A program made the position numbers and the translations under genes. Shown here piece after piece: positions 380 through 58,100 of a stretch of 64,000 nt of DNA (position 1 is the first letter of the stretch; each line of letters opens with the position of its first letter). The notes under the pieces were generated by a model, which searched no databases, was not told the origin of the DNA, and saw only the letters and a list, made by a program, of their open reading frames with translations. The DNA comes from Strix aluco. Lineage: Eukaryota > Chordata > Aves > Strigiformes > Strigidae. The DNA is taken from the NCBI RefSeq assembly GCF_031877795.1, contig NC_133934.1, positions 26,601,716-26,665,715 on the forward strand, in the 5' to 3' direction.

Positions 380-1040
380 TGAGTTTCACGCCCTTCATTC
401 CGCAGGCCGGGCCTGACCCCTCGCTCTCTTCGCGCGGCGCCGCCCCTTGCTACCGGCCGCTTCACACCCTCCGCCGCTCCCCACCGCCCTCCGCCCGCCA
501 CGCTGGGCGGGGCCCGGCCCGGGAGGGCAGCCAATGGCAGCGCGCCGGATCACCGGGGCGGCTCCCAGTACCCAATCGGAGGAGGGCGCTGCGGGCCGCT
601 CCGCAAAGGGACCGTGCGGGGAGCGGGAAGTCTTCGTGCTGTAGGGAGGAGGGCGGCGGCGAGCGGTCTCCTGCCATGTCCCGCCGTGCCCGCGTTCTGG
701 GTAGGCCTGTTGCTGCGCCCTTTTGGGAGATGCTGGCGCTGCTCGCCCAGGAGCCAGGTATGGAGTGGCTGGAGCTGGGCCTTGCTGGGCAAGCAGTCCC
801 CTTCTCACGTCGCAGCCGAGGAACAGCGTGTAGGGCGGTGGCGCACCCCGGCGGCTCCCGGCAGCGCGGGGAGCACCGCACGGTGGCTGGTAAGTGGGGA
901 CCATGCTCTGTGGGAGGGGCTGCCAGCACATACGGCCGTGGGAGCTCGATGCCTGCCCTGCACTCTCCTGTGACCGGGGGCTGGCCTCTGGCTCTGGGCG
1001 GGGGGCAGGCATATCGCTGGTGACGGTGGCTCCCGCAGGG
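380..1040. promoter_or_regulatory. CpG-island promoter of the recombinase-like gene
   Basis: This stretch is sharply richer in G, C and CpG than the AT-rich flanks. It carries a GC box (GGGCGG, 505-510) and two CCAAT motifs (531-535 and 572-576) about 100-145 bases upstream of the ATG at 676. No TATA box is evident, so a TATA-less housekeeping-type promoter with start sites around 580-660 is likely (inference). The island also covers the first coding exon and its splice donor at 889/890. Its symmetry leaves open a divergent transcript to the left, but no spliced gene on the minus strand could be supported. Confidence 0.7.
676..889 (+). CDS. Recombinase-like gene, coding exon 1
   Basis: It encodes 71 residues plus one base, rich in Arg, Ala and Gly, with a central hydrophobic stretch (FWEMLALLAQEP). 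The donor is CTG|GTAAGT at 889/890, a near-consensus site. A second good donor, CAG|GTATGG at 757/758, is in the same phase and would shorten the protein by 44 residues. The segment resembles no family I know and may have been acquired from the CpG island when the element was captured. The 5'UTR probably starts between about 580 and 660. Confidence 0.6.
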
Positions 1041-2428
1041 CAGCGCTTCTTTTGTTTTGCTTGAGTTCTTGTGTGAGGCTGGAGCTCTTGGTGGGAGGCT
1101 TTGAGTGAGTTCCCTTCCTGGGCTGGAACATACACAGCCTTCTGGCAGGAGCGTGCTGTATGCCCTTCACAGTTGTAACTTCTGTAAGCCATACCAGGAA
1201 GACTTAATTTTAAAACTACTTTCTGCTTGTCCTTTCTGTTACTACTCCACAAACTTGTAAATTCCCAGAGTGTTACCAGATCGAGTGCCTGAAATGGGCC
1301 TGGTTTGTTGTTTGTAGTTTCCCATTTGAAAAATATCTCAGCTCTTTAACAGCTGTGGGTGTAGCTGTGTGTGACTTGTCTTTTAATCAGATAAACTAGC
1401 AGAGCATTGTCTAGGGGTGTATTGCAGTGAGGAACACTGTCTTTGTTGCTGTTTAGGTGGCATGCTTGTGCATGTTATCAGCAATGTGCTAACATGATTC
1501 CTCTCTTGTAGGAAGGGATTTTAGTTGTCCTCGGAAACATTCCTTGGGACCTCGGCCTCTGAAGACTTTGTCGTTGCTGGAGTGCTCAGGGGATAGTAGG
1601 CTTTGGCAAGCCTACCTTGAAGGACTGAAGAAATTCCTTGTCTTTAGGAAAAGCATGGGAATGCCTGCAGCCTGGCCAATTCCAGAGGAACAAGTTAGGG
1701 GTTTTTTGGCTGTGGAATCCCTTTATTCATCCTCAAAGACACTGATGTATATGGCAGCACTGTCTTACTTATCAAAACTGACCGGTAACCCTGATCCTCT
1801 GGAAGATCCTATAACCCGTTGCATGGTGATAGGGTTGAAACGTCGAGCGGGCATCCTGAGGGATAAAGACTTGCCTATAACAATTGAGATGTTGCGATCT
1901 CTCTTAGGAGTTCTGGAGTCTGTATGCATAACTTATTATGAATGCTTACTGTTTCGTGCATTATTTACTGTAGCTTTTTTTGGGGCTTTTCGAATAGGAG
2001 AGATGGTGGTGAAGCACTGTAATGTAGTGCAGCCGGAGCTGCTGTACCTGAGTGACCTCCAGCTGATGGAGAGGAGAGTGGTGTTTTGTCTGCATAACTC
2101 TCCTGTGAGTGAGGAGAGACATGTCATCAGCCTTGGGCTGTCTGGAGAGCCGTGGGTGTGCCCTGTTCTGGCCCTCCAGAGCTATGTGGCAGTTCGTTCA
2201 CAGCTGGAAGGGCCACTCTTTATGCACTCAGATAATAGGACTGTAACGAAGAGGGAGTTCCTGACAGTTCTCCGATGGGCCCTGCGGCTGCTGGGGCTGT
2301 GCCCAGAGCAGTATGGTGTGAATTCCTTCTGGCTGGGGACGGCTGTTACTGCTGCCCGCTGTGGATATCCGGGGGAAGACATCACTCGCCTGGTGAGATG
2401 GCCCTGTATGATCCCAGAGAAATCATAG
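676..2428 (+). CDS. Tyrosine recombinase-like (integrase-fold) protein, probable domesticated mobile-element gene; joined 676-889, 1512-2428
   Basis: Two exons join in frame (phase 1/1) to give 376 codons. The ATG at 676 has G at -3. The first in-frame ATG of exon 2 would cut into the fold, so the exon 1 start is preferred. Residues 1-72 are basic, low-complexity and CpG-encoded. Residues about 102-183 resemble the helical SAM-like DNA-binding domain of phage integrases. Residues about 190-370 resemble the catalytic domain of DIRS/XerD-type tyrosine recombinases: the arm-I box with its arginine (AFRIGE, Arg232), a CPVLAL...GPLF block, and a C-terminal block ending in LVRW. The usual HxxR is NSFW (Asn342, Trp345), and the chain stops 8 residues after the RW (arginine-tryptophan) pair, so the nucleophilic tyrosine is absent. 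An inactive, DNA-binding-capable domesticated protein is inferred; function unknown. An AATAAA follows at 2707. The reading frame is fully open, unlike the CR1 relics in this window. Confidence 0.72.
1512..2428 (+). CDS. Recombinase-like gene, coding exon 2 (integrase domain)
   Basis: The acceptor is a pyrimidine-rich tract ending in CTCTTGTAG at 1511. The exon supplies the last two bases of a glycine codon and then 304 codons to a TAG at 2426-2428. All of the recognisable integrase fold lies in this single uninterrupted exon, as expected for an intronless mobile-element ORF placed behind a host promoter and exon 1. Arg232 is encoded at 1991-1993, Asn342 at 2321-2323 and Trp345 at 2330-2332. 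Confidence 0.7.
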
Positions 2429-2706
2429 CCATGGAGACTGGGGGAAAATAGAAGCTAATGAATTACCATCTTTCCGTAGAGTTGACTTTGAACTGTACAG
2501 TTTCTAGTCTTTGGCAGTAATTTAGTATTAACATCTGTAAGGAATTTTCTATCTCACAGTGGGGTGATCTCTGAATTTCACTCATAGTTGCTGCTTGTGC
2601 TGTCTGTAATGTTGAGGGTGGGGAAATGTCAAACCTGCTATGCATGGACCTTGTCTGTCTTGACAGAATGAGTCTGCAGACAGTTCTATCTCGTTTAGTG
2701 TGAGTT

Positions 2707-2712
2707 AATAAA
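2707..2712 (+). terminator. Poly(A) signal of the recombinase-like gene
   Basis: A canonical AATAAA lies 279 bases after the stop codon, followed by a T/GT-rich stretch at about 2713-2760. This gives a compact 3'UTR and supports a complete transcription unit. Confidence 0.6.
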
Positions 2713-3342
2713 TGTTTTCTTTTTAAAAACAGTCTGTCTGCTAGTAGTATTGTTCTTTACCCAGAAGAAACTGTAGTCTTGGCTTTGAGAGCAATGAATG
2801 TCAAGCCGGCTCTGAAGTTCTGAAGGAAAACTCTTGAGACTTTAAGGTAATCATTGTAAAACAGGAGGTGGTTAAATTGTAGTATCTTTTGGTGTAGCTG
2901 TACACTTTTTAACACTAATCTGTGTCACTAAGGTCAAAAGGGAAATATAAGATACATTATTAGCTCAATAACAGACAACAAAGGATGAGCTTTTTGAAAC
3001 ATTGATAATCGCAAGATGTTCAAAGTGGTATCTTGTACTGTTTAAATGGGGGACAGCAGCTTTTCTATTCAACAAACTCTGCCTCTGAAAATATTTAATT
3101 TAATCCTCTAGACCCAATTCCCTCTGAGCATAATTAGCCTAATCAGTATTTAAATAACAAAAATAGTGCACGGTTCACTTAACAGCTAATGATTTCCTTA
3201 GGATGTGATACTTGCTGTCCTTAATTCAACCTGCTTTTTTTTTCCTGAATTTTAAGTTACTTTTTAAAATTGAGGAGTTTTCAACCATAATCATAAAGTA
3301 CAACGGCTTGAGTACTTCTAATTTTGTAATTATAGCATTTGT

Positions 3343-13797: not shown

Positions 13798-16700
13798 GTG
13801 AGAATACTGCTTGATAGCTAGATGTTGCATTGAGGTTTATTTTACTCAGGAGGTAGTGTCCTGATGTGTCTTACATGGTCTTTCATCTGTTTCGTTTTAC
13901 TTTGTCTCACTGATGCATAAACAAAATGAATGATCACGTACAGCCAGAACTTAAATGCTTTTTGTGAAGCTTTGATTTTTTAGGGTTTCTTTTTAATCGG
14001 GAAGGTTTGCTTTGAACTCTTATTAGTCTAGGAAGTCACTGTGAGTCACCAGAGAGTGATGTACACTAAAGCACTTGCTTCCTACAGAGTGCCAGCTGGC
14101 ACTTGTGCAAGTCTTGTGAGTGTTACTGTCCTTGCCTCTTGCTTGCAGAAATGTGTGACTATCTAAAGGTAATGTAGAGACTGCCTATGGAAACTGTGAT
14201 GAACAAACCAGTGTGGAACAGCAAAAGTGTCATTTAAAACCTAAAGTTTTAGTGAATTATCCTTAGTCATTAAGTCTAGATAGCAAGAAGCATCTTCAAA
14301 TACGTGGTTTGGGAAGGTGTTAGTGCAAGGATGTGTTCAAACATCATGCAATTGCCAATTTGTGAAGAAATCAGCTCAGACATTTTCCAGGTGGTAGTTA
14401 AAGAAAGTAAATTCTGAAAGTAGCATGAATCTATCAGTGCTGCATTTAGGGAGATATCACAAGGCATTAGTCTGGGAGCAGGTCTGACTTCAGACTTTGC
14501 TTTTAATTTTAGCTTGGCAGATGTGTGACTGTAAGTCAATAATCTCTATGCCTATGAAAGACTTCAGTAAAATAAAGGTAATGATATTTACCTTCAAAAA
14601 AGGCAGGAATCTCTGGCTGCAGAGGTGGGGTTTTTTTGAGTGGGTGTGAAAAGCTAGTTAGCTATTCATTTAGTACAGGTGAATGCTGTCCTTATTTGGT
14701 ATTCAGGTATACTTCTGTTTATGCACTAAGTTATATTCTACAGTATATGAATGATAAATACAGTTATAGCAAATACCTTCTTTCTATGGCTTCAAGAAGT
14801 ATCTTCTGATACTGCTCAGTGCTTAATCTGATGTACTGAACAAATCTGTTATCTAGCTGTAGAATCAGCAAAAGGAAAATATGCTCACATGCTGTTTAAT
14901 GAACTGTTTGAAGACTACTCAAATGCTCTAAGACCAGTGGAAGACACAGATAAAGTACTGAATGTCACCCTTCAGATCACATTGTCCCAAATTAAAGACA
15001 TGGTGAGTAAGAGTACAGTTCTGTTTTTCTAAAGATGTGCAGAAATGTACTGGCTGTAAACCTTTTATGTGGAGTAGGAGAAGCAACTTGCATTTTGTTG
15101 TGACAACTTCAGTAGTGCTTTCTCACCAGGGTCATGTTCTCCTTCATAGATTCTTATCTAATTGCAACACTAAGACTTCCATTATAAGACTGCAAACTTA
15201 CAGCTGCTGAATTGTTAAGACTTTTTTTGTAGTTTAGGTGTTGGTATTGCACCCTCCAGGCATTTTTTTCTGAGTTTTAAATAGAAAGAGCAAATGCTTT
15301 TTCTAACATGCAATTAATTTCTACATGAATGCCCTATTTTGGCCTTCAGTAATCTTTTTATACATTTGGTTCAGCCAGATATATTTTTAAGGCAAAAGAA
15401 AATGTGTCTGGAAGGGGAATGGAAAATCACTTTCATGACTTCTGAATTACAACTTCAAGGCCTCACCAAGCTTCCAGAGAATTTGTTAGACTGAATCTGT
15501 TAGCTGTGTGGTATTCTGAAGCTTGCAAAAGGAAATTCTTAAGATACTGGGAGCCTTAGACAACTATGATTAAAGCTAGGGGGAGGGTGCAGGGGGAAAG
15601 AAGGTTTAGACAAGAGAAAGTCCAGATAAATAAGCTCCCTGTACAGTGTATGGGCATATGTACCTGTCTGAGAAGTGCTCTTGTGGCCTGTCAGCATTCT
15701 GGCCTATTTTGGGCTCTGCTTTAAAGCTATACAACAAACGCTGTCTGCATCTAAGATGTGATTTTTGTCACCTTCAGCTAGAAATATTTCTACATTTTTA
15801 TGCAGGATGAAAGGAACCAAATTTTGTCAACTTACTTATGGATTCGACAAAGCTGGTATGATGCATACCTCAAATGGGACAAAGATAAATATGATGGGTT
15901 GGATTCTATCAGGATTCCGAGCAATTTGGTTTGGAGACCAGATATTGTCCTGTATAACAAGTGAGTGTGGCTGGAGAAAATTGGCTTGAATATTTGTCTG
16001 AGGGTGGGAGGTGGCTGGAGAAGGAATTGACCCACAGAATCTGAACTTTTGCCACTTTCCCTTACCTTAGCAAGGGGTATGTTTGTTGTCTTAACATTTG
16101 TTGTTGATCATCTAAATATTTTGCAATAAAGTCATAGACAGGATTTGCCAATTGATTATGCTACACAGCAAAGCTGTTCTGAACTTCTCTGCACTGGGAA
16201 TTGAATACCCTGGCAGTCTGAAGTGCTTTCTGCTGAGGCTGATGAAGAGCTCTGGAAGATTATCCACAGAAAAGTGGTACACAAAGGCTGCAATCCTTGT
16301 CTGCTCTCCCAGGCCAGTAGTGACCGGCAGATTATTTTCCTACTGTATCCTGTTTGAGTTCAAGTTTGAAGAAGCTATGGCCAGCAAATACAACATAGTT
16401 TAGCAGCACTGATTTTTGCCATTAATGGGCACTGGTACCTGCAAATAATAGATAATAGCAAGTTTCTACCAAAATTCAGTATAAATATAAATATGATTTC
16501 AGAAGCATGCCTTTAATGGTGTGAAACAAGGGTCTTCCCCCTTGTCACACCTTCCCTAGCCCACACTCTAGGTTGTTGCCTGTCAATCCTGACTGTCACT
16601 TTTTTGTCTTTTAGGGCTGATGATGACTTTTCAGAACCAGTGAATACTAATGTTGTGTTGAGATATGATGGAAAAATCACTTGGGATGCACCTGCTATCA

Positions 16701-19136
16701 CAAAGAGTTCATGTGTAGTGGATGTATCTTATTTTCCTTTTGACAGCCAGCAGTGCAATCTTACGTTTGGGTCCTGGACCTATAATGGTAATCAGGTAGA
16801 CATCATCAATTCTCTTGATAGTGGTGACCTCTCTGACTTCATAGAAGATGTGGAATGGGAGATTCATGGTATGCCAGCAGTTAAGAACGTCATCACTTAT
16901 GGCTGCTGCTCTGAGCCTTATCCAGATGTGACCTTCACACTGATTTTGAAAAGGAAGTCTTCTTTCTACATATTTAATCTGTTGCTTCCTTGCATTTTGA
17001 TCTCTTTCCTGGCCCCACTGGGATTCTATCTCCCTGCAGACTCTGGAGAAAAAGTGTCTCTGGGTGTTACAGTTCTTCTTGCTCTGACTGTGTTCCAGCT
17101 GATGGTTGCAGAGATCATGCCTCCCTCTGAAAATGTACCTCTGATAGGTGAGTTTTACATGCTTTGTCTTTAAACACGGCTTATTAATAGCAGGGCTGTA
17201 TGTCAGGGAAACGTTATGTAATTTGTGCAGTCTGGTAAGATAAAGGTGATGCATTTTTAAAACAGTGAAATATTTAAAATGTGCCTGGAATTTGTACAGG
17301 TATGCTGCAGCTCTTTAAGGTCTTTTGTGTTTATTTTAAATTATATGTTAGCTGCTATTTTGTATTTACTAAATATAGTTAGACATTTAGAATTATTTTA
17401 TCACATCTTGTAAAGGATTTTAGAACCAGCATATGAAGTGTAAGCAAGAGTTGTAAGCACAAGGTCAGACTCTTTCAAGATATGTTTCTGTTAAGATCCA
17501 GATGGTTGGGTGGCCTGGCTGGGACACTCAGGGTTGTCTTAATATCTGTCAATTGTTACATTGAACTGCAATGCCTGGCAATGCAGTATGCTGAATTTTA
17601 ATTTAGACCTGAGTTCAGAAGAGCTGATCTGCAGTGAAAGAGTGGTGTCCTGTCTGCCATCTGCCAGGACTGGCCAGCCCCTTGGGGCAGGAGCTTGCCT
17701 GGCTGTCCTGGTGGGAGTTCTGGAGGACCAGGAACACAGTTGCCTCCACACTGGCTTCCAGCTTCGTTAAGATAATTCAGATCTCATTATTTTTATTCTT
17801 GTTATTGCTGTGTATATAAAAAACTACATGGCTTAACTGAGACAAAACACTGGTTAATGAATAGGACTGTTGAATGCATTTCCCACACCAGCAGCAACTA
17901 TTCCTGCCTAGAATATGTGCTTGCTGGACCTTCCCTTCCCTTCCCTCCTATGGCACTGTCTAAATTAAGGAGCTAGGACCTAGCTTCAGTCTGCTTTCTC
18001 TATTCCCCTGCTCTCCCTCACCATCCTTTGCAACCCTTATGAAAACTGGGGTCACATCACGCTTGTCTGTGCTGCATCGTGTCATTGATGCCAGCCTGCG
18101 TGAATGCAAAGATCCATCTGCTGGCGTGGAGTGCGTCAATAGCTCCAACAAAGCGTTATCATCACTTTTGTTAATACATCAGGAAATGGGATTTCTAATG
18201 TGCCACGTGGAGCCATCAACATTGTGATTTTGAAGACACCACGAAAAGAGCAAGGCTCCTGATAAAAATTTTTTAAGCTGCTTTCTGAATGGGTGTATCT
18301 TGAGAAATCAGAGATTTTGGCTTGCAAATATTTACCATCCTAATACAATAGTCACTCAGCTGATAAAGGCATGCCAGTAATGAGTATGAGATTTTACTTT
18401 AATGGCTTTAATTTTTGTTTTTAAATGATAAATTAAGTGACATCTAAGTACAGAGAATCAGGGTGATTAAAAATTGGTTTCACTTGCATTTATGTTTAGC
18501 ACTATGTTGTCACATTGTTATTTCTGCATTGAAGTTTGTTATTAGGGTAGCATCTTTAGTATGATTTTATTCTGTGTTCCAGGGAAGTATTACATAGCGA
18601 CTATGACCATGATCACAGCTTCCACTGCATTGACGATCATTATAATGAATCTCCATCACTGTGGCTCAGAAGCAAAGCCTGTTCCGCAATGGGCCAGGGT
18701 GGTTATTTTGGACTACATGTCAAAAATCTTTTTTGTTTATGATGTGGGTGAAAATTGCACAAGTCCGAAAAGAGAGAAGGAAGAACGTAAGTTAGAGTGG
18801 GATGATGGGTGTCAGAAGAGTCACAAAGAGGTAAGGAGTCACCTTTCCAATAGGAATGATGACTGTGGTCTTAAGGAGAAGCTCAATGGAAATTTGAATA
18901 AAAGCTATGGAGTTCATGGTGAAAATGTTAGGGAGACTGTTAATTGCTGTTCCTGTTACAAAATGCTGATTAAGAACATTGAGTATATTGCTAATTGTGT
19001 CCGAGACCATAAAGCAAACCGGGCCAAAGGAATTGAGTGGAAAAAAGTCGCAAAAGTAATGGACAGGTTTTTCATGTGGATTTTTTTTATCATGGTGTTT
19101 TTTATGAGTGTGCTGATCATTGGGAAAGCAGCTTAA
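13728..19136 (+). CDS. CHRNA9: Neuronal acetylcholine receptor subunit alpha-9; five exons, 483 aa
   Basis: The five exons (13728-13797, 14863-15002, 15806-15960, 16615-17147, 18583-19136) all have GT-AG borders and join in frame to 483 residues, close to the 479 of the human protein. The product is a subunit of the ligand-gated cation channel (alpha9 or alpha9/alpha10 pentamers) mediating efferent cholinergic inhibition of inner-ear hair cells. Residues 1-23 form a signal peptide. The extracellular domain carries the Cys-loop (Cys155-Cys169, 13 residues between), an NLT glycosylation site at 170, and the vicinal cysteine pair 219-220 that defines alpha subunits. TM1 is about 239-262, TM2 267-289, TM3 301-324 and TM4 461-481. 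The long, variable TM3-TM4 cytoplasmic loop lies in the last exon. The tail-to-tail RBM47 neighbour matches vertebrate synteny. The frame is intact with no sign of decay. Confidence 0.97.
13798..14862 (+). other. CHRNA9 intron 1
   Basis: 1,065 bases between good splice sites. I see no further exon or repeat in it. Confidence 0.85.
14863..15002 (+). CDS. CHRNA9: CHRNA9 exon 2
   Basis: 140 bases, acceptor AGCTGTAG at 14862 and donor ATG|GTGAGT at 15002/15003. It encodes the N-terminal helix and first beta strands, including [20 protein letters not shown], which is characteristic of alpha9. Confidence 0.93.
15003..15805 (+). other. CHRNA9 intron 2
   Basis: 803 bases; nothing recognisable inside. 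Confidence 0.88.
15806..15960 (+). CDS. CHRNA9: CHRNA9 exon 3
   Basis: 155 bases, acceptor TTTATGCAG and donor AA|GTGAGT. It encodes the conserved YLWIRQSW and [11 protein letters not shown] segments of the ligand-binding domain, which contribute to the complementary face of the acetylcholine site. Confidence 0.95.
15961..16614 (+). other. CHRNA9 intron 3
   Basis: 654 bases; nothing recognisable inside. Confidence 0.88.
16615..17147 (+). CDS. CHRNA9: CHRNA9 exon 4 (Cys-loop, TM1, TM2)
   Basis: 533 bases, acceptor TGTCTTTTAG and donor ATAG|GTGAGT. It holds the Cys-loop, the vicinal cysteines, TM1 with its conserved proline, and the pore-lining TM2 ([19 protein letters not shown]). Confidence 0.97.
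17148..18582 (+). other. CHRNA9 intron 4
   Basis: 1,435 bases separating TM2 from TM3. It contains a short CCCTT-type run at about 17930-17948 and no other recognisable element. Confidence 0.88.
18583..19136 (+). CDS. CHRNA9: CHRNA9 exon 5 (TM3, cytoplasmic loop, TM4)
   Basis: The acceptor is TGTGTTCCAG and the stop is TAA at 19134-19136. It encodes TM3, about 130 residues of hydrophilic, Lys/Asn/Cys-rich cytoplasmic loop, the amphipathic pre-TM4 helix ([18 protein letters not shown]) and TM4. The loop is much less recognisable than the flanking segments, as is normal for this family. Confidence 0.95.
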
Positions 19137-21827: not shown

Positions 21828-23580
21828 ATAGAATCATAGAATCATTCAGGTTGGAAAAGACCCTTGAGATCATCAAGTCCAACCATCAGCCCTACTCTAC
21901 AAAGTTCTCCCCTACACCATATCCCCCAACATCTCATCTAAACGACCCTTAAAGACATCCAGGATGGTGACTCTACCACCTCCCTGGGCAGCCTATTCCA
22001 CTGTCTGACCACTCTTTCTGTGAAAAATTTTTTCCTAATGTCCAGTCTAAACCTCCCCTGTTGCAGTTTAAAGCCATTCCCCCTTGTTCTGTCACTAATC
22101 ACCTGTGAGAAGAGACCAGCACCAACCTCTCTACAGTGTCCTTTCAGGTAGTTGTAGAGAGTGATGAGGTCTCCCCTCAGCCTTCTCTTCCTCATACTGA
22201 ACAGTCCCAGCTCCCTCAATCGCTCCTCATAGGATTTGTTCTCCAGGCCCTTCACCAGCTTCATTGTCCTCCTCTGCACTCGCTCCAGCACCTTGGTACC
22301 TCTCTCATATTGAGGTGCCCAAAACTGGACACAATACTCAAGGTGTGTCCTCACCAGTGCAGAGTACAGGGGACTATCACCTCCCTACTTCTGCTGGTCA
22401 CACTATTTCTAATACAAGCCAGGATGTCGTTGGCTTTCTTGGCCACCTGGGCACACTGCTGGTTCATGTTCAGCCGACTATCAACCAACACCCCCAGGTC
22501 CCTCTCTGACTGGCAGCTCTCCAGCCACACCTCCCCAAGCCTGTAGCGATGCATGGGGTTGTTGTGGCCCAAGTGCAGGACCTGGCACTTGGCCTTGTTG
22601 AAGCTTATCCCGTTGATGTTGGCCCACTGATCCAATCTATCCAAGTCTCTCTGTAGAGCCTCCTTATCCTCATGCAGATCAACACTCCCGCTTAACTTGG
22701 TGTCATCTGCGAACTTACTGATGATACACTCTGTCCTTATCAAGATCATCAATAAAGATGTTAAACAGAAATGGTCCCAACACCGAGCCCTGAGGAACAC
22801 CACTTGTGATTGGCCGCCAGCTGGATTTAGCTCCACTGACCACCACTCTCTGGGACCGTCCATCCAGCCAGTGCTTGACCCAGCAGACCGTTCGCTCATC
22901 CAGGCCATGAGCAGCCAGTTTTTCTATGAGAGTCCTATGGGGAACTGTGTCGAATCCTTTGCAAAAATCCAGGTAAACAATAGCCACAGCTTTTCCCTCG
23001 TCCAATAGTCAGGTCATCTTGTCATAGAAGGAGACCAGGTTTGTCAGGCAGGACCTGCCTTTCATAAACCCATGCTGACTGGGCCTGATCCCCTGCTTGT
23101 CCATTATATGACTTTTAATGGCACTCAAGATGACCTGCTCCATGACCTTCCCTGGCACTGAGGTCAGACTGACAGGTCTATAGTTTCCTGGATCCTCCTT
23201 TCTGCCTCTCTTGTAGATGGGTGTTACATTTGCCACCCTCCAGTCCAATGGGACTTCCCCAGTTAGCCATGACTTCAGGTAAATCATGGAAAGCGGCTTG
23301 GCGAGCACATCTGCCAACTCTTTCAGCACCCTTGGGTGTAACCCATCCGGTCCCACAGACTTGTGTGCATCCAAGTGGTGTAGCAGGTCTCTGACCACTT
23401 CCTCTTTAATTGTGCTGACCTCAACCTGCTTCCCCTCCCCATCTCCCAGATCATGAGGCTGGGTGTCCAGGGAACAGCCAGTTCCACTGCTAAAGACTGA
23501 GGCAAAGTAGGTGTTGAGCACCTCAGCCTTTTCCTCATCCTTAGTTACCATATCTTTGGACTTGCTCATTTTCCAGGGTA
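21828..23580 (-). mobile_element. CR1 LINE, 5'-truncated copy A (antisense)
   Basis: On the minus strand this is the 3' part of a chicken-repeat-1 retrotransposon. It contains the end of the endonuclease/RT linker, most of the reverse transcriptase, the C-terminal region and a 3' terminus of ATTCTATG-type repeats (21828-21845). RT hallmarks are visible: [56 protein letters not shown] and the catalytic FADD box. The frame is broken at about 23007, again between 22908 and 22715, and near 22354, so it is dead. It is 5'-truncated near 23580 as most CR1 copies are. The 3' end differs from copies B and C, suggesting another subfamily. Confidence 0.93.
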
Positions 23581-23639
23581 AAAACACAATGTGATGCTGC
23601 GTGACCATGCTTCTGGTGACAAGGTTCATGCTACTGCAA

Positions 23640-26600
23640 CCATATAAGAGCTAGCTGATTTAAAGCTAGCTCAGGAGTTTCTAACTAAACTGTAGGGGCT
23701 GTAGTTTAAGTGTCCTTCCAAAGTCTTCTGTTCCGTTTGTATATCTCTGTATTTAGCGATTTCATTAAGAAAAAAATGGCTCAAAATCAATCAAGCATGT
23801 TAGCAGTCAGAACTCTATGTGACAACTCTAGTGCTGAGTGGAATGTTTAATTTAATTCCGTCTGTCCTGGACTCTTCTTCTTTCATTTGTCTCTCATGCT
23901 TAGATCCAGTAATCTTCTGAGGAAGATTAAATCCAGAGATGATGAATGACTATGATTATAGTAACAGAAAAATAACTATTTATGCACTTGTCTGAGTAAC
24001 TCTGCAGGCTTAACGTGAAGGCAGCAGGGTGACTTTATATTTACTGAGGACAATGATGCTGTAAAAACACTGTTTGAGATCTGTGTGCTACAGAGGCCTT
24101 TGAGGAATGAGCTGACAGATTTTTTTGTTGTACCATCTCTTAGCAGAGAGATCACCTGTCCCCTCTTGTATTGAGTCATTGCGGTGTTAAAATGAGAAGA
24201 AATATAAGCTATCTCCTGTGGTGCCTTCACTGTGCTTTCTTCCATCAGCAGGATTACAGAACTGAAGATGAAGTGTGATGGGATCTTGGGGTGTTGAGGT
24301 CCCAATGGTGCAGAAAGGTAGGAGATGACCTTAGCTACCCCAAGAAATCTGTTTCTGTTTGTGGAAATTGCAGCCTGAGGATTCAGGCTAAACCCAAAAG
24401 GGTCATCCTGGACAGTAAAGACATCTTGAAATAGAGAAGTGGGTTTTTGCATGTTTCAGGAATTCAGGTGTTACATTGTAAGTTACCTACATGTTTCATC
24501 CTCTGACTAACAAAGCTTTGTTCTCTGACCCTGCCAGAAGTATGGGAAGTGTCTGAGAATTGTTTCTCAAGAAGTGAAGGAGTGTAGCAAGAACTCCTGA
24601 TTGTGCATTTCTGTCCCAATTTGAGAAGCGTAAGACCTGTGATGTTAGGAGATGGGAGAAGGAGAGCATGGGATGAGAGGGCATTCCTTTCATTCTGTTT
24701 ATAAAACTGGGAAGAATCCATCTTTTCTTACAAACTTCTGTTACTCATTGACGAAAAGAATACATTGACTCTTGTTTTCATTCTTAAAATCTTTTAGTTG
24801 ATGACAGAATGTGGGACCAAAGGTGGCCTCTGGAGTTTGTGTGCAACCACCACTTTTGTACTTGCAGGCAAGGTGAGTAACCTAGAGCTCAATTAAAGGA
24901 GCAGAGGAAGCTGAACATCTCTTCTCACTGATTCTGAAGTCCACTAGAAAAGAGAAATCTCTCTTCTTTGTTAGAGACAAGTCCAGCTGTGTGGAAAGGA
25001 CAAGAGGTAGCAGAGTAGTTTATCTCCTTTGTGTTGTGCAACTTAGAGCTTCATTGTCTCCAGATACCTTTTAAGAACTCCTTTCTGCAAGGTGGCAGTG
25101 AACAATACTGGTTTTACGTTGCTTGCAGTAAGGAATAACTTGAGATTGAAAGTATCCAGCTTGGGTTTGTTCTTACATGTTTCTTTCTAAATACTTTTTG
25201 GGCATTTGATTCCTAGTCTGTAGTCCACAGACCACTGAAGGTCTGCAAGGCCAGGAATACATGGCAGTTGTTCCCTTGGGGTGCAGGGACTGACCTTGCA
25301 GCAGGCTAGTGGTGAACTAAATGATGCCATCCTTGGTCATGCAGGGTCCTGTGTTGCTTTGGCTGGCCATGACAGTGCTGCATCTCCAGGTGTAGTTCTA
25401 GCCATTGTGTTTGAGAAGACAATTAGGGGTATCTGCAGCAGGACAAAATCCACATATAACTGTTCAGGGAGGGATGTCAGTTGTTGAGGAGCATACCAGG
25501 GTGGAGTATGTGGTCTGTGCTTAATTCCAGAGGCAGTTTTTGCAGAGAACTCTTATGCCTTGGTCTGTTCTTGGGCACTAGATATCAATCTAGTGAACAT
25601 CCAGAAGACATAGATCAAGATTAAAAGAATGGCAGCTACAGTTTTAAAGAGGATTTTTCATTCTAGTTCCTGAAAATATTTATTTAAAAAGTGATTCAGT
25701 ACTATCTTCTAAGTAACCCACCTAGAATTATGGATTTTTCTAGGGAGCCAGTATTGTTGTTTGCTTCCTCTGCCATTCTGAGCATTTATCTTTACCAGGT
25801 TCTGTGTCTTATGACGTTCATACAGCTACTCACAACAAATTTTCGCTTCTGTTGCAAAGGAACTTGAAACGGATTTTTATATACCATTATTTTTATTCAT
25901 ATCACTCTTCACTGAAGAATATTTTATCTATGGTGTTGGGAGTTGCTGGGGACTGCACTCCACAAAGTCTGTTCTGCATTACCCTTTGGTTTGAAGAATG
26001 CATTGGTTTTGGTTACTCTGAATGCAGTGACAGAGCTGGCAAAGGAAGAATGTTGGAGCACAGAATAACATGGTTTTAAAGATTGCTTAAACGTAACCCA
26101 GATTATTGTAGGCACAGTGTCTCAGTGAATAAAATAGGTAAATTGGGATTCACTAGGTATTTGCTTGCTATGTGTCACCACTAACGGATAACTGATCAAT
26201 AGTGCTCTTAAATACTGTATAATAACACTGTATTTTCTTTTTGTTTGCTTGTGAATTCTCCATTAGCATGCTTAAGAACATGTTAGCAGGAAATTATTGA
26301 GCCAATATTATGTGAACAAATAAAGAATGATACTGTGATTAATGCATGCATCTGTATGGTTCTGTTGTTAGTGTGCCATAGGTAAGTAATAGATCTGGCT
26401 CTTTTCATTCTGTATTTTCAGTTCTAGCTGAACACTACCAAGCTGCTCACTGTATTTCAGTGGCAGGAGTGCCTTTTGTTAGTGTTTCACTGTAACAAAA
26501 ATGGACTCTAACTAGAAAGTTAGATAAATGTTAGTGTCATCTGGAGTAGCCTCCAGAGGTTAGAAAAACCCTTCACAGATAAAGCATTTTGCTAGAATGT

Positions 26601-32450: not shown

Positions 32451-33630
32451 TCATAGAATCATAGAATTGCATGGGTTGAAAGGGACCTTAAAGATCATCT
32501 AGTTCCAACTGCCCTGTCATGGTCAGGGACACCTTCCAACTAGATCAGGTTGCTCAAAGTCCCATCCAACCTGGCCTGGAACATGTCCAGGGAGGGGGCA
32601 GCCACCACGTCTCTGGGCAACCTGTTCCAGTGTCTCGTCACCCTCACAGTAAAGAATATCTTCCTTACACCTAACCTAAATCTATCCCCTTTCAGTTTAA
32701 AGCCATTACCCCTTGTCCTATCACTACAAGCCCTTGTCAAAAGTCCCTCCCCATCTTTCCTGTAGCCCTCTTTAAGTACTGGAAGGCTGCTGTAAGGTGT
32801 CCCCAGAGCCTTCTCTTCTCCAGGCTGAACAACCCCAACTCTCTCAGCCTGCCCTTATAGGGGAGGTGCTCCAGCCCCCTGATCATCTTTGTGGCCTCCT
32901 CTGGACTCACTCCAACAGGTCCTTATGCTGGGGGCCCCAGAGCTGGACACAGTACTGCAGGTGGGCTCTCATGAGAGCAGAGCAGAGTGGGAGAATCACT
33001 TCCCTTGACCTGCTGGCCACGCTTCTCTTGATGCAGCCCAGGATACAGTTGGCTTTCTGGGCTGCAGACACACGTTGCTGGGTCTTGTTGAGCTTCTTGT
33101 CAACCAGCACTCCCAAATCCTCCTCCTCAGGGCTGCTCTCAATCCACTCATCGTCCAGCCTGTATTTGTGCTTGGGATTGCCCCAATCCATGTGCAAGAC
33201 TTTGCACTTGGCATTGTGGAACTTCATGGGGTTCACACGGGCCCACCTCTCAAGCATGTCCAGGTCCCTCTGGATGACATCCCTTCCCTCCAGTGTGTTG
33301 ACAGCACCACACGGCTTGGTGTTGTCAGCAAACTTGCTGAGGGTGCACTCCATCCCACTGTCCATGTCACCAACAAAGATGTTAAACAGCGCTGGTCCCA
33401 ATACTGACCCCTGAGGAACGCCACTCATCACTGCTCTCCACTGGGACATCAAGCTGTTGACTGCATCTGCAACCATCCAGCCAATTCCTTATCTACTGAG
33501 TGGTCCATCTGTCATATCCATGTCTCTCCAGTTTAGAGACAAGGATGTCATGTGGGACAGTGTCAGATGCTTTGCACAAGTCCAGATAGATGATGTCAGT
33601 TGCCCTTCCCTTATCCACCAGTGCTGTGGA
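32451..33630 (-). mobile_element. CR1 LINE, 5'-truncated copy B (antisense)
   Basis: The minus strand carries RT and C-terminal CR1 sequence, from a [22 protein letters not shown] region near 33630 to the ATTCTATG-type 3' end at 32451-32467. A frame break lies near 33480. The long remaining frame (33476-32907) shows [16 protein letters not shown], but its active-site box reads FADN instead of FADD, so the last catalytic aspartate is lost. The tail shares the pattern of copy C. Confidence 0.93.
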
Positions 33631-51100: not shown

Positions 51101-54100
51101 TAATAGGCGTGCATTTCAAAGCCCACTTTTCAAGCATCCTTTAGTAATACCTGGAATTCCTAAAGTATCTTTACAAACATGCATAGCAGTATTTTCTGAT
51201 TGTGAGTGGGCAGTTTTCTCAGGAAGTCTGATCTTCCTTTGGAAATGGCTCTAATCTTAACAGCCTTCTTTTGTCTCTGGAATTCTTCTCAGATTCTCAT
51301 CCAGCTGTTATGAAGAAGTCTTCACAGCCTTCATTAGATGCAAGCTGTAGTTTGGAACGTGTTTTGGGAAACCACTGTAGGTCCATTATTAAACACCACT
51401 TAGGTCCTGCAGTTATAATTTATTTGGAGAGAGGAATGGGGAGAACACCTGAGGACTTCTGCAAGAGGACTTTCTCCCATCACCTGCAAGGACCTTCTTC
51501 CTCAGGCTGCTTTTCCAAATAAAAATCTTTCCAAACAGGATCTTGAGGAATTGCAGGGCTTCAGCCTTCATCCCGTTCACCTGGGAAGGGCAAGGGCTGG
51601 ATATTAAGCTGAGGATGTGGCAGAAGGTGGCAATCCCTGCCCTGGCCCTTTTGGGTGGGCACCCTGCAGCCCAGCAGAGCTGAGAGCTCTCCTGTAGGCG
51701 CTGCATAATGGCAAGCTGGACCCTGAGGGCTCCTTCCATTGCTCCATCTCCATGCTGCTGCTGGGGACGGAGGAGCTTGCCTCAGCGATGGACTTTCTTG
51801 CAATGGGAAAGCCCCAGGTGCTTTTCCCAGCCTTGTAACACTGGAGAAAACAAACTAAGCAAGGGAGAGGTCTGGCCTGGCTGGAAATCTGGGGTGGGAA
51901 TCTCCCAGGCTGAAATTAGCATTGAAGAAATCAAAAGAGAGGAAGATTACTCTTAGTCACCATGCTCTAGTGTGAATGACTAGATGGAGAGGAAAGTCCT
52001 CTTCCTCCTGAGAAGGTGCAGAAGGGGACAGGAGGAGTGAACACAGCTTCAGCCCCTTTTTTCTTTGGCCTGAAGAGCTCCCAGATGCTCACGTCCCCTG
52101 TCCCTCTGCATGCCTCTTGTTTGCAGAAAGCCTGGCTAGGGTCATGAGGCATCCGGCACAGGGGAGTGCTGAGCTCTGGCCCCAGGGCTGTCCCCACTGC
52201 TGCAGCCATGGGCTGGCCCTGGAGGGGTCCCCACATGCCTGACATGGGGCTTGGAGTGGGGCCTCACCCGCAACCTCTGCTTTCCTCCCCTCATTGCACA
52301 TACTAACCTGCACCAGGCTTAATGGCCACCGGATTGACTGCAGGTAGCTCCAGGTTGGGTACCAGCTCATATCCTTTCTCTTGCTGTTTTCCTTTGCCTT
52401 CGTGGTACCTGCTGTAGATGCCACGGCCGGCGGAGTATCCCCCCAGGTAGGAGCCCCTGGGGCCTGGGGCTCTGTTGCCAGCTGCACCTCGCCCTCTGCC
52501 TCGTATGCTGCCTGCTTATGATAACAACATAGAAGAGGATGGTGAATAACAGAGAGCGACAGCCCTGTGGGGAGCATGAACAGCCCCAGGCTGAGATCAA
52601 GAGGCATGTGCTTAGAAATGAGGCTGCTGAAGTTAGTTTGATCTGAGTCTTAGTGACTTTGCTTAGGAAAAGAGTTTGGCCTTAGAAGCACCCAGTAAGC
52701 CTAGGCAAGATTTCCTCTTGATGTTTCTGACCATACATTAATTGCTTATTTATACTGATGCAACTCTCGTGGCCAGTGTTATGGGTATAATGCACTCAGC
52801 AGAGAGAGGGGCTCCTCCAGGGTGATTTCTATGCAGTAGGAACAGCTTCTGCTCTCATCTGTCCTCCAGAGGAGACCCAGCCTCTCAGCTGGCCATGATG
52901 GGACCCTGCAGAGATGGCCTGAAGTTGTACCTGCCCTTTAACCAACCTTGTCCCACCATCGCATATGTTTTTACTAGCGTTGTTTGCTTTCTCTGCTATT
53001 TTATTAGTAATGTGAATATATCCCATCTCCAAAAATATTGCCTTTATTTGTCTTAGCGACTCCATGCACGTTATGATAGTACTTTGGACACTGCAGTATT
53101 AATGCACTCTACGATGGCCTAATTGAATATTTAGATTGTCAGTTAACTCCTTTATAGTTCATTTCAAGTACAAATCTGGAAATTGAGAAGAAGCTGAAAT
53201 TTTTGATCAACTAGGGTTAAAAATATTTCTTGGTTTATGTGGGTGCCTTAAGAATATATGCATGCTAAACTGCCTGTTATATGGAAATACTCATTGCATT
53301 TCAGGAAACTATAATTCCTGTAAGTACAGGATAATTGTAATTATAACACCAGTTATAGCTGCTAGGGTTTTTTATGAATAACTGATTTTTGGTTAATTTT
53401 TAATGACTGTAACAGATACCTAATTAAAGTATACATAGTAAAAGAATTATTTTGCACTCACATGATTCCTTCTGCTTGTAGTTCTCAAATGACTTTATAA
53501 AGGACACAGCACTACTGTCATTTTAACGCAGAGGACAAATAACACCTGGAGAGCTCCCAAGGCTTCTCCTGACATCCCTTCTTTTGGATGACCAGGTCAC
53601 CGTAGCCACACCTCCAGGAGAAGGCAAAGGGAGCACTCTGTCATAATCTCTAATACTGAGACTCTGGCTCTTTGGAAGGAGGCATCAGAAGCTGGAGTCC
53701 TTGGACTTGTTCAGACTTAGTACAGCACTCATAAAAACCAGATCGCTCTCTTCCCCATCCCATGCTTGGTCCATTAGCTCATTCTTAACCATATTTTTGA
53801 TGCCTCCCTCATACTAGCCTATACATTAGCAATTATTTATAGATAAATACACTCTGTATAGTCACAGATTAAAATGATACCAAACAGAAATATGACAAAA
53901 AGACATATAAAAGAGTGTTTAAGAAAAAAGTGCATAGCACCAGGTGTCCTTTGGCTCAGGGCAGACCTTGGGTCACACCAGCCTGAGCTCAAACCTGCCC
54001 ATTACATGCCCTAATTGTGCTTACTAACCTTTCACAAAGTAATCTCTGTTGGGCCCGATCAAGGCATTGTATGGATATCCATAATAAGCTAGTGTGTATG

Positions 54101-55157
54101 GATCACAAGAGTAAACATAATTAGGTTGCTGAGTTACTTCAGGCGTTGCTGCGGCCCCTCCTTTTGCTGCTTTCTGGTAGCGAGTATATTGCTCCTTGTC
54201 TACCGGCTTGGCCAAGGTAACCTCCAGGCACGAGCCTTCCAGTTCAACACCATTAAGGTTGTTCATGGCGTGAATGGCATCTTCCCTGGTTGTAAAGTGC
54301 ACAAAGGCGTAATCACGTATTTTTTTCACCCGCTCTACACAGCCAGGGTTAAACTGCCCAAAGACCTTTTTAATGGTGTCCTCTGTGGTCTCAATCATTA
54401 AATTCCTCACATAGAGGATTTTAACAGTCTCCATGACATCTTCATCCACATCTATCTCTGGTTCCGCCCAGTCAACAGCAATTTGGTGTCCCCACAGCTG
54501 GATCCTTCCCGGCATGAGTTTCCTCCTGGCCATTGCCGCTGCTCGATGGCTCTCATACTCCACGAAGGCGAAGCCTCTGTTCTTCATCTTGTCTGCAGCA
54601 CTGGCATACACGATGACATCCAGCACGCCTTCTGTCACCTTGGCAATCTCTTCCAGGATCTCCTCTCTCTTCTTCATCTTGGGAATGCCTCCAATGAAGA
54701 GCCGGCAGTTATCCACACTGCAGCACACACCCAGCAGCCTACCGGGGCGGATTTCATAGTTATTCAGCTCCCTGACAGCCCGCTTCGCCTCGTGCTTCTG
54801 CGTGTACATCACAAAGGCGTAGCCACGGTTCTTCCCATCAAAGTCCATCATCAGGCGCATTTCATAGATGCGGCCGACGGACTCAAACACAGGGACGAGC
54901 TCATCTTCATAGACGTCACGGGGGATTTTTCCCACAAAGACTTCGCAGCCGCGAGGAGGGTGCAGGCCCTCCCATCCAGGAGGAGGGCCACCGTACTTGC
55001 GTTGCCCGTTCTCCTGGATCATGCTATATCCAGTGCGCTCCATGAGGGCCAGCAGAGCTGCCTCATTGGGCGCACCGGCAACACCTTCAGGGACTTTCGT
55101 GGTAGCCACATTGGAGGAATCGTTGCTCATCCTTGCAGTGGAGTCCTCAGCAGTCAT
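47849..55157 (-). CDS. RBM47: RNA-binding motif protein 47; four coding exons, 598 aa
   Basis: Exons (minus strand) 55157-54029, 52514-52308, 48720-48518 and 48106-47849 join in frame to 598 residues; human RBM47 has about 593. The protein is nuclear and binds mRNA. It supports APOBEC1-dependent C-to-U editing in mammals and regulates alternative splicing and mRNA stability. RRM1 is about 71-149, RRM2 151-233 and RRM3 246-318, with clear RNP motifs such as [32 protein letters not shown] and LYVRNL/DYAFVHF. An RG-rich stretch (SIRGRGRG) and two polyalanine tracts follow. The protein ends in VYQTY. The start MTAEDST matches the family. The upstream 10 codons to the splice acceptor are open but are taken as 5'UTR. 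The locus is convergent with CHRNA9. Confidence 0.97.
48107..48517 (-). other. RBM47 intron 3
   Basis: 411 bases between exons 3 and 4; includes short GGGAAGTGGGATGTG-like repeats at about 48455-48500. No other feature. Confidence 0.85.
48518..48720 (-). CDS. RBM47: RBM47 coding exon 3 (first polyalanine tract)
   Basis: 203 bases, acceptor TCTCTCCTAG and donor TTCCAG|GTGAGT. It encodes [20 protein letters not shown], then a [20 protein letters not shown] segment, a run of about 11 alanines and VSTPPPFQ. Confidence 0.95.
48721..52307 (-). other. RBM47 intron 2
   Basis: About 3.6 kb. It contains the CR1 copy C and an A-run of about 17 bases at 49336-49352. Nothing else is recognised. Confidence 0.85.
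49562..50207 (+). mobile_element. CR1 LINE, 3' fragment C
   Basis: Plus-strand CR1 tail, antisense to RBM47. It begins in the MSRQCT...[17 protein letters not shown] region of the C-terminal RT segment and runs through the [16 protein letters not shown] block to the ATTCTATGATGCTATGATT terminus at 50188-50207. It is about 645 bases long, interrupted by frame shifts (e.g. near 49770) and non-functional. Its 3' end resembles copy B. Confidence 0.93.
52308..52514 (-). CDS. RBM47: RBM47 coding exon 2 (RG-rich segment)
   Basis: 207 bases, phase 1 at both ends. It encodes (A)[20 protein letters not shown] through NPVAIKPG. The acceptor is a tandem AAGCAG: using the first AG gives AGSIRG, as in the human protein, and the second removes one alanine. 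The donor is GCAG|GTTAGT. Because the exon is a multiple of three in matching phase, skipping it keeps the frame and would remove 69 residues. Confidence 0.93.
52515..54028 (-). other. RBM47 intron 1 (between coding exons 1 and 2)
   Basis: About 1.5 kb, AT-rich in its middle (53.0-53.5 kb). No exon or repeat recognised. Confidence 0.85.
54029..55157 (-). CDS. RBM47: RBM47 coding exon 1 (all three RRMs)
   Basis: The exon begins at 55188 (acceptor TTTGCCCAG), with 31 bases of 5'UTR before the ATG at 55157. It encodes 376 residues plus one base and ends at donor AAAG|GTTAGT (54029/54028). One large exon carrying all RRMs is typical of RBM47. Confidence 0.97.
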
Positions 55158-55188
55158 GGTGTCAAACTCATTCACAGCCTGATAAAGC

Positions 55189-58100
55189 CTGGGCAAAGGA
55201 AGAAGGAGGACACTTGTTAGAAGCTGTTAGCTAACACCAGAATCCCACCCCTCTCTTGTCTTCCTGTAGTTGTTCTGCGAGTTCATTTTCAAACTGGGAC
55301 TAAGGTTGCAGAAAAGCAGATGACAAGCCACACCAGCCTGAGTATTCATACTATAGGGGGAGCACATTCTGGATGTAGACACAGCCTCTCTTTGAGGTGG
55401 GCGGCTGAGGATCACCTGCCCATACCACCCCGGCACTGAGAGCTGCTGCCACAGGAGGCTGAAGTCTCATGAACAGATGCCACCAAGCACCTCAAAACCT
55501 CAAGACCCTGGGAAGGCTTGTCTCGTCTTTGAAAGGGTAGGAAGGAGCTGGCACAGAATTAGGAAAGGGAAGATACTGCCATGAAGCCAGCAGTTCCCAC
55601 CTCCAGAGCCCTTTCCTCCCTCTCAGTCGTTCCTCAGTTAATCCATCTACTCCTGAACAGCACAAGTGGCAGGTGCCACACTCCATGTCGAAAGATAGCA
55701 AATGCATGAGAAGCACCAGGCACGGTTTCCATCTGATAACAACCCCTCGCTCCTCTAGGCCTTCACAGTAACTGTTGAGTAGGAAATAATAAATACGCTT
55801 TAGCATCGGGGGGGGGACCAATTCTTGTTCTCCTGTGCAAAGGGAAATCTGGCAAGCTTCTGATTGCCTGCTGCTTGTGGTACAATGTCTGATGTTTTTG
55901 TTTCTTCTGTTATTACAACAGGACTTCACAAAAGCTGAAGAGAATCACTCCCTTATGACAGGAAACTTGCTTTAGAGCAAGAGGCCAGCACAGGCCTGCA
56001 AGCCAGCAAGAGGAAGGCAAATCTCAGAAACCTCATTCTGCATTTGAACACAGGCAGAGAGTAGGAAATGCAGACACACAGGAGGAGATGACCATGCTAA
56101 TGACCACAACTGCAAGACAGTGGGCTTCCTCTCTGAGCACAATTAAATAAGATACTTTGGGACTCTGAGAGAGTTAATTCATTGCATTTTAAAGCTGGAA
56201 AGGTCCATCAGATCATTAATGAGAGTGGTTGTATATGACATGGACCATTACATTTTCCTGCTATTTGCACATTGAGTCCTATAACATCTGAGTAAATCGT
56301 ATCTTCCAGAAGGACCCGGGTTTTAAGGAATCAAAGAGCCATAGACCCCACCACTTCCCTTTATGGCTTGTTCACTAATCACTCCCTCAGACAAGCAAGC
56401 TTGCTGTGTTTCTCATGAGAATTTGTCTGGCTTTTGCTTCCAGCTAAGATTACTTGTTAAACCATTCTCTGATAGACTAAAGAGTTTTTCAAGGCCTCTG
56501 CTTTTGCCTTATGATGATATTTAAGTTGTGTAATCAAGTCTTTTTAATAAAAGTTGCAGGCTGAACTCCGGAATTCCTTCACAATCAGTATTTTTTTCAC
56601 CTGAAATTGTTTTTGTGGCTCTTTTGACAGTTCTCTAGGCTTTCAGCCTTTTCCACCCTTGCTATATACAGGGATGAAGATCATCCCTTTTTCTTCTCCC
56701 CATGTCTCTGTATCACCAAGGCCTGTTTCTCCACACCTTCTCAGTAGCAAACCATGTGGAGTTTTTTGTCAATTCTAACCCCAAATCCTTTCGAGAAGCA
56801 CCACTTGCTGGGGTTATGTCCCATGCAGCAGGCATGCCTTGCGTTTGTTACTCCTAAATGCCACAACCTTGTGTTCATCCCTATCCCATGCCTTTTGAAT
56901 AGATCCCACCTACTGAGTGCTACATGTTGGCTCCTTCTCATTGTTTTTTACAACTCTATCAGCCTTTGCATCATCCATCGTTTCATTTGCCATGATTTGC
57001 ATTCATGACCAGTTTGTTGATGGAACTGTCAAAAAACACTGGCCTCTGTAGGAAACTCTGCAAATCACTATAAGAAATGCCCCAATCTGGGTTTGACAGG
57101 ATTGTTTTCCAAAAAAAGGACAAAGCTTCAGCTACATTTATTTATTCTATGTAGTTGTGTTATTCAGTGGGACACAGGTTTCTCTCTGTCCCACAAAAAC
57201 TGTGATATATACCCTTTGTTAGAATGATTTGGCCATTTTCAATGCATTGGTTGCCATGCAGGTAGGTCTTTCACTAGTACAGTAGGCGCAAGTCCACAGA
57301 AATATGGGCGCAAAATTTAGGCACCTAAGTCTGATTTGTGTGTTCCACAAAACCCATTTAAATCCTAGTAATCTTAGCACCTCAGATTTTTTTCAGTAAA
57401 TCTCTGCTGCCCAGAATTGTGCTGGTCTGTATCAAGAGATGCCTCTGCAGCAGCCAGGGCAAACACCACTGTGCCTGGTTCAGCTCCTAAATGTGTTTAG
57501 GATTGGGAAACCAGACCTCTGAGCTTTGATCTGTGGTAGGACCTGATCCTGAAGGTGTGTTTGGGCCATGGGTGTTACATGCTAATGCTTCTGAGTCATT
57601 TTAATTTAAAAGTATGGAGAGCAGAGTGGGAGGCAGAGAAGGTAGAAGTAACAGTGATGCTGGTGCCCAGGCATACTTTAGAAAACATAATTTCTCTGAA
57701 GCCAGGTCTTTCATGGAAGTGCATCAGTTTTGATAGCTTCTTGCTTTAAAATGTTGATGAACACGTTTCTCTCAGATTCAAATGTTCCCCCTTTTAAATG
57801 TGTCACATTTTCATTTTACACCTGGGAATTATTTGACATAATTAAAAAAATTAAGGCAGAGAAAAACATTTTCATTTTTCACTTGACAATTTGTTCCTAA
57901 AAATGTGACTTCACCTTTCCCTGAATGAAAGAAAAGCTTGTTAAACACTTTATTGGGGAATAATCATTACCTTTACATGGGCCACCTGTTGGCAAGTGAA
58001 TTACTTATTGCCTCAGGTTTGGGTAGAAATTTAGAAATAAGTCATTACCATTAGTTTTAGGTCAACTTACAAAAGAAAAGTCTCTGTATTCTGTCATCTG

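Follow-up and report, generated by a model that had tools for sequence, protein, structure and literature searches.

At the edge of the window analysed here, a 64,000-nt stretch of the 1.41-Gb genome of the owl Strix aluco (C4:26601716-26665715), lies a two-exon gene, termed gene A. We regard it as probably a product of domestication, a host gene derived from the tyrosine recombinase (YR) of a DIRS-order retrotransposon, reverse transcriptase (RT)-bearing and perhaps Ngaro-like, that landed between RHOH and CHRNA9. A sequence-only reading of this DNA had proposed an undescribed domesticated recombinase upstream of CHRNA9. Domestication and the recombinase fold both stand, whilst three corrections are required: the protein is catalytically dead, it is truncated at its C-terminus, and the gene is one of a head-to-head pair. 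The word undescribed holds within the reach of the literature searches; among the matches listed from the open-licence literature, neither a YR gene at RHOH/CHRNA9 nor a sauropsid YR domestication was found, and searches with six of the many LOC names of the family found no papers.

Gene A occupies positions 676-889 and 1512-2428 of the forward strand of the window, and its spliced product comprises 376 aa plus a stop. The promoter region (401-900, forward strand) is a CpG island with a GC content of 0.74 and an observed/expected CpG ratio of 0.84, within which CCAAT boxes at 531 and 572 and GC boxes (GGGCGG) at 505, 556 and 651 can be read on the same strand. Coding exon 1 (676-889, forward), with its ATG at 676, splices in frame to exon 2, and is composed of an N-terminal motif, PFWEMLALLAQEPGMEWL, and a variable linker. 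The motif is common to bird, crocodile, turtle, gecko and snake rows, and the exon as a whole has, as far as can be seen, no recombinase ancestry. A phase-1 GT...AG intron is predicted at 890-1511 of the forward strand, bounded by the donor GGCTG/GTAAGT, which places the end of exon 1 at 889, and by the acceptor TCTTGTAG/G, which starts exon 2 at 1512 and maintains the frame. The resulting junction, VAG-RDFSCPRKH, has its counterpart in annotated bird proteins, for example P0006 (VAG-REFSCPQKH). The reading frame also accommodates another donor, GT at 758, of the same phase as that at 889, which would leave a possible short exon 1 at 676-757 (forward strand); its use may yield a linker-less form such as those predicted for P0003 and P0010. 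Isoform labels do occur in the annotation names of gene A relatives, although as hints of transcription and splicing in this family they are only suggestive. Exon 2 (1512-2428, forward strand, stop at 2426-2428) encodes core-binding and catalytic-type YR domains, and a putative poly(A) signal, AATAAA, lies at 2707-2712 on the same strand. The earlier description of a CpG island with CCAAT and GC boxes, a coding first exon with a donor and phase-matched acceptor (889/1512), a 376-residue product, one uninterrupted exon running in frame to its stop and a nearby AATAAA is thus borne out.

The 311-codon frame of exon 2 was equalled in none of 2000 dinucleotide-Markov sequences built from a 2-kb stretch of the window (1001-3000), in which the longest frame averaged 109 codons. 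However, the maximum among these sequences was 308 codons, and other frames of 316 and 400 codons exist in the window, so that frame length is weak evidence. Gene status was therefore decided by 67 homologues, the distant P0069 being set aside. Under simulated random substitution, the frame remained open in 163 of 1000 trials at 0.05 substitutions per site and in 57 of 1000 at 0.1, falling to 2 of 1000 at both 0.2 and 0.3 and to 0 of 1000 at 0.5.

Relatives of the gene were recovered with the 304-aa exon-2 protein, which gave 68 protein matches, and with an 11-row sauropsid profile, which gave 75, the single remote addition being P0205. Every organism-named match derives from a bird, crocodile, turtle or squamate. 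Due to the homologue searches scoring only word-sharing candidates (the best 8000 for the 11-row profile), mammals and amphibians are missing from the match lists only, rather than being proven absent. Identity to the exon-2 protein is 77-90 % for named bird A proteins, 53-61 % for named full-length proteins of the second bird copy, B (up to 64 % for partial B proteins), 62 % for crocodile, 53-59 % for turtles, 42-44 % for geckos and 42 % for snake; P0069, an ENA entry, is a complete recombinase with 29 % identity. In 17 hand-picked full-length rows, with truncated B rows left out, the core spans 290-294 aa at a mean identity of 0.57, compared with 15-84 aa and 0.22 for the linker. Most relatives are annotated as 'uncharacterized protein' or 'hypothetical protein', whereas at least two bear a recombinase label: P0010 ('putative tyrosine recombinase') and P0021 ('Tyr recombinase domain-contai...'), the latter a prediction that looks chimeric, its tail being unrelated. 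Zebra finch has a predicted member (P0012), and the bar-tailed godwit annotation names its A protein as an isoform of a 'rho-related gtp-binding protein'. The snake Erythrolamprus reginae harbours two close copies, P0067 and P0191, with an identical longest-contig value, which suggests a separate snake duplication.

In the owl, the genes are arranged in the order RHOH-like frame, B, A and CHRNA9. The first of these is a Ras-family frame of 191 aa (C4:26575485-26576060), some 23 kb before B, which from its sequence we take to be RHOH. CHRNA9 is represented by a stop-to-stop frame over its large exon (16517-17173 of the window, forward strand), for which the best match in the PDB is the nicotinic alpha-9 subunit (1.7e-72) and which also matches Pfam Neur_chan. 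The same neighbour is encountered in cobra, where protein P0204 starts as the family gene and runs on as CHRNA9; the CHRNA9 part is 66 % identical to the window exon over 187 positions by BLASTP. Most simply, P0204 is a gene-prediction fusion of neighbours, and because this model joins both, the family gene adjoins CHRNA9 in the snake too. Owl and cobra, the two species whose loci were seen, therefore carry the gene at the same place, and the syntenic relative that the sequence-only reading had called for beside CHRNA9 does exist. Further along the window, a 400-codon RRM-rich frame (54024-55226, reverse strand), for which the PDB matches are related RRM proteins, is presumably RBM47, completing the CHRNA9-RBM47 neighbourhood, whilst broken open pieces at 21938-23650 and 32540-33488 (reverse strand) presumably resemble CR1-type reverse transcriptase, in line with the broken CR1 copies noted in the sequence-only reading.

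The fold of the protein was reached indirectly. Pfam and NCBIfam scans of the gene A product assigned no family, and neither the single protein nor the sauropsid profile found a meaningful match among PDB sequences. A chain of profiles, however, leads from A4 to A5 (hhalign E 2.5e-35) and from A5 to Cre (E 1.3e-9), and a structure model also supports the fold, although modelling from sauropsid rows alone is too poor to stand on its own. By this route gene A displays the Cre/Xer-like architecture of a YR, with a core-binding helical domain and a catalytic domain that has a beta-hairpin, and the integrase-type fold previously ascribed to exon 2 is upheld.

The active site was assessed in an alignment (A6) of 45 of 84 sauropsid-type proteins, chosen for length and spread, and 16 complete YRs. 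Of the active-enzyme set R-K-H-R-H/W-Y, the complete enzymes retain the first Arg and the Lys in 15 of 16 rows each, and the His, second Arg, Trp and Tyr in all 16. The sauropsid family departs from this set: the first Arg is present in 35/45 rows, His in 40/45 and Trp-III in 33/45, but the second Arg survives in 1/45 (replaced by Trp in 42/45), Tyr in 0/45 and Lys in 0/45, the Lys column lying in a variable hairpin and being alignment-dependent. In the owl gene A protein the His column holds Asn, as it does in Tyto. The single row with Arg at the second-Arg column is the gull A protein, P0005, which is still without the Tyr. As the sauropsid proteins end just past a GRW-like block, the Tyr helix and everything beyond it are missing. 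Judged by these residues and by its early end, the gene A product has a dead catalytic site and a truncated C-terminus.

Immediately upstream of the window lies gene B (C4:26598780-26599658, reverse strand; L007, L009:1763-3297), a second intact copy 62 % identical to A. The two are positioned head-to-head with their ATGs about 2.1 kb apart, and B has its own CpG island and its own exon 1 carrying the same FW motif. Alignment of A and B is possible only in exon 2 (70 % over 833 bp) and in 59 bp of exon 1, and the B protein is identical to a Strix uralensis protein at 302 of 304 aligned residues. A whole-genome search with the gene A protein scored five candidates and yielded three matches: A itself, B, and a stop-containing relict about 60 residues long at C1:132001022-132001201 (reverse strand; L008, L012:4523-4699; E 7.9e-4). 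The relict is nearest to B and is perhaps a decayed duplicate or retrocopy.

Comparison of A with B gave a dN of about 0.28 and a dS of about 0.96-1.12, with a dN/dS of 0.24-0.29 across four methods, a codon bootstrap range of 0.17-0.36 and 0 of 500 replicates at or above 1. By quarters the ratio is 0.36, 0.31, 0.23 and 0.11, the last being saturated, as its dS is 2.4. There is purifying selection between A and B, a single paralogue pair. In a 54-row tree, drawn with a midpoint root and with long branches flagged, all sauropsid rows group together (100/99) at the end of a long branch. Within this group the A and B rows of birds are sisters (95/90), which dates the duplication after the bird-crocodile split; crocodile is represented by a single row, and the order of crocodile, turtle and squamate rows is not settled in this tree. 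In gull and great tit, A and B are seemingly on one contig, to judge from an equal longest-contig value and, in gull, from consecutive LOC numbers. Several B proteins of passerines and parrots (P0041, P0046-P0049 and P0192-P0194) diverge or end straight after HSFWLG, and in some of them the first Arg is gone, a hint that B is still being lost or is less constrained in some birds, or that the gene models are poor. The median core net charge is +14 in 16 complete YRs, +6.5 in 18 A proteins, +1 in 7 reptile proteins and -1 in 19 B proteins.

With regard to the parental element, a search of genome contigs with A5 identified five loci, two of which (L001 and L002) contain a gag-like frame, called by eye and without a Pfam match, an RVT_1 frame that also matches an RNase H-type domain weakly (E 0.03-0.04), and an overlapping frame for the YR. 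The combination of gag-like, RT and overlapping YR frames constitutes a DIRS-order layout. The two loci come from MAGs labelled 'Gammaproteobacteria bacterium AqS3' and endosymbiont of Escarpia laminata; we take the former to be sponge-associated and the latter host to be a tubeworm, and the loci themselves are probably animal host DNA binned with symbionts. No methyltransferase match was obtained in the six L001/L002 frames scanned. The lack of a methyltransferase is a criterion for Ngaro-like elements, alongside split direct repeats and the RT/RH phylogeny, and loci without such a match would fit that type. Subgroups of the DIRS order are used here as in sections of PMC6681497.

In BLASTP comparisons, six family members scored 45-107 bits against a panel of 12 complete A5-type and RT-linked YRs, two of which (P0206 and P0207) sit behind the RVT_1 frames of L002 and L001, respectively. 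Thus the nearest YR relatives found include RT-linked ones, the flanks having been seen for these two. When P0069 was searched against the 1.41-Gb owl genome, the only matches were A and B (two matches at E ≤ 0.001, seven candidates scored). Neither the RT nor the gag of L001/L002 matched the window better than E 0.67, so the locus is at most derived from a DIRS/Ngaro-order element. Viral contig searches with P0001 and A5 returned nothing usable. Excerpts of PMC9004415 report pre-amniote DIRS and Ngaro fossils in human, consistent with a donor of DIRS or Ngaro type having been around. We infer a parental element that would be DIRS-order and RT-bearing, and maybe Ngaro-like; its insertion into the RHOH-CHRNA9 interval would date to the sauropsid ancestor or before.

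An origin from a different class of element, in which gene A is another Crypton-derived DUF3504 gene, a missed sibling of KCTD1, KIAA1958, ZMYM and QRICH1 or of the ATF7IP Crypton, is improbable. Both fold type and kind of fate are alike, and DIRS elements and Cryptons have YRs that are akin to each other (parts of PMC5753468 and PMC6681497), but at E ≤ 1 neither the 23 sauropsid members of A1 nor its P0069 matched DUF3504 (PF12012), nor did P0030 or P0032, and the 19 PF12012 matches in the owl genome all lie off C4. Moreover, the six family members that reach 45-107 bits with complete YRs do not exceed 24.6 bits with owl frames that underlie DUF3504 matches, a comparison that comprises five frames of the 19 matches (L023 just 96 aa, L022 part-masked) and includes no Crypton element. 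On the C4 result and the low scores to these five frames, a Crypton-derived identity was rejected. Far harder to sustain is the notion of a decaying retrotransposon remnant, or a recent insertion, with a frame open by chance and no function. A dead catalytic site, the lost C-terminus, a family without demonstrated function and, on another chromosome, a B-like fragment carrying a stop all speak for such a remnant; against this, related open frames extend from owl to snake (although lists of predicted proteins are biased towards intact frames), A-B dN/dS is about 0.25, random substitution rarely leaves the frame open (2/1000 at 0.2 and 0/1000 at 0.5 per site), the place beside CHRNA9 is common to owl and cobra, and P0069 matches A and B only in the owl genome. 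A recent retrotransposon was likewise rejected, there being no RT or gag match better than E 0.67 in the window and no P0069 match other than A and B. That the recombinase is still active in some species is scarcely credible: the gull P0005 does have Arg at the second-Arg column, yet catalytic Tyr and Lys are found in 0 of 45 sauropsid rows (the Lys column being alignment-dependent), and activity was rejected on this count.

Returning to a domesticated DIRS-order YR, the loss of cutting residues from a gene that is nonetheless retained in birds, crocodiles, turtles, lizards and snakes suggests a non-cutting job, and the protein may work without cutting DNA, as a DNA/chromatin or protein adaptor. 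The core-binding and emptied catalytic domains would act as a DNA- or chromatin-docking body, whilst partner recruitment would fall to the conserved helix motif of exon 1 (FWxMLALLAREPGMEWL), as in other dead recombinase-fold proteins. Because the median core charge is +6.5 in A and -1 in B, A, with its basic core, would be the likelier DNA binder, and B, about neutral, would more likely be a protein-protein partner. Should the same domesticated gene instead serve as a purely protein-protein scaffold with no nucleic-acid contact, which is a minority possibility to be taken seriously, the loss of positive charge, greatest in B, would be accounted for, as would the missing C-terminus, the loss of which would take away the helix used in recombinase tetramers. 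A proteins, however, retain a median pI of 9.1, and the first Arg and the His persist in 35 and 40 of 45 rows, respectively; in active enzymes these two residues engage the scissile phosphate (text portions of PMC10516654). More of a long shot is a sauropsid restriction pair, in which non-cutting A and B subunits mix or compete with an incoming DIRS/Ngaro recombinase and so block integration. If true, it would help to explain both why DIRS/Ngaro elements reportedly go undetected in birds (sections of PMC5753468 and PMC7786948) and why P0069 matches only A and B; yet geckos and snakes have the gene whilst the lizard Anolis is DIRS-rich (according to part of PMC3266345), and positive charge has been lost.

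In the sections of PMC3212892 and PMC4495291 consulted, known vertebrate genes from transposon YRs are Crypton-derived, and the DIRS-order domestications encountered are gag-derived and mammalian. If correct, the reading favoured here would be an independent event in which the YR of an RT-bearing element became a host gene retained by birds, crocodile, turtles and squamates and doubled in birds. It would add a lineage-restricted gene pair at a well-mapped locus, and another independent case of the recombinase fold being retained after catalysis was lost. The closest parallels are the YRs of L001/L002 and A5, which are homologous to the family across the core-binding and catalytic domains, but have a near complete catalytic set in 16 rows and, in L001/L002, an adjoining RT.

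Dead recombinase-fold DNA binders include the yeast kinetochore protein Ndc10 and QRICH1/Zincore. Entries for both gave weak fold matches to one helical domain of a low-confidence model, the matched Zincore chain being QRICH1 to judge from its residue numbers; the likeness is that of a weak fold match, with no sequence kinship shown. MrpR/YopR of phage SPbeta, a repressor whose recombinase function is lost (excerpts of PMC10516654), differs from the sauropsid family in being a phage protein with Lys and Tyr retained, and is taken as an independent origin. The Crypton YR domestications listed in passages of PMC3212892, namely KCTD1, KIAA1958, ZMYM2/3/4, QRICH1 and WOC, together with an intronic Crypton in ATF7IP, are similarly host genes from a transposon YR with the catalytic tetrad mostly lost. 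Unlike these, the sauropsid family has no DUF3504 match, has as its best relatives found the A5-type and two RT-linked YRs, is without the Tyr part, is sited at CHRNA9 and has named hits in sauropsids only. LAP2alpha (TMPO) and ZNF451-L2a, described in part of PMC4495291 as domesticated DIRS1-like gag in mammals, resemble the owl gene as host exons from a DIRS-order retrotransposon in a single large exon; in those mammalian cases the element contributed its gag ORF, whereas the owl gene would derive from the YR ORF, in sauropsids.
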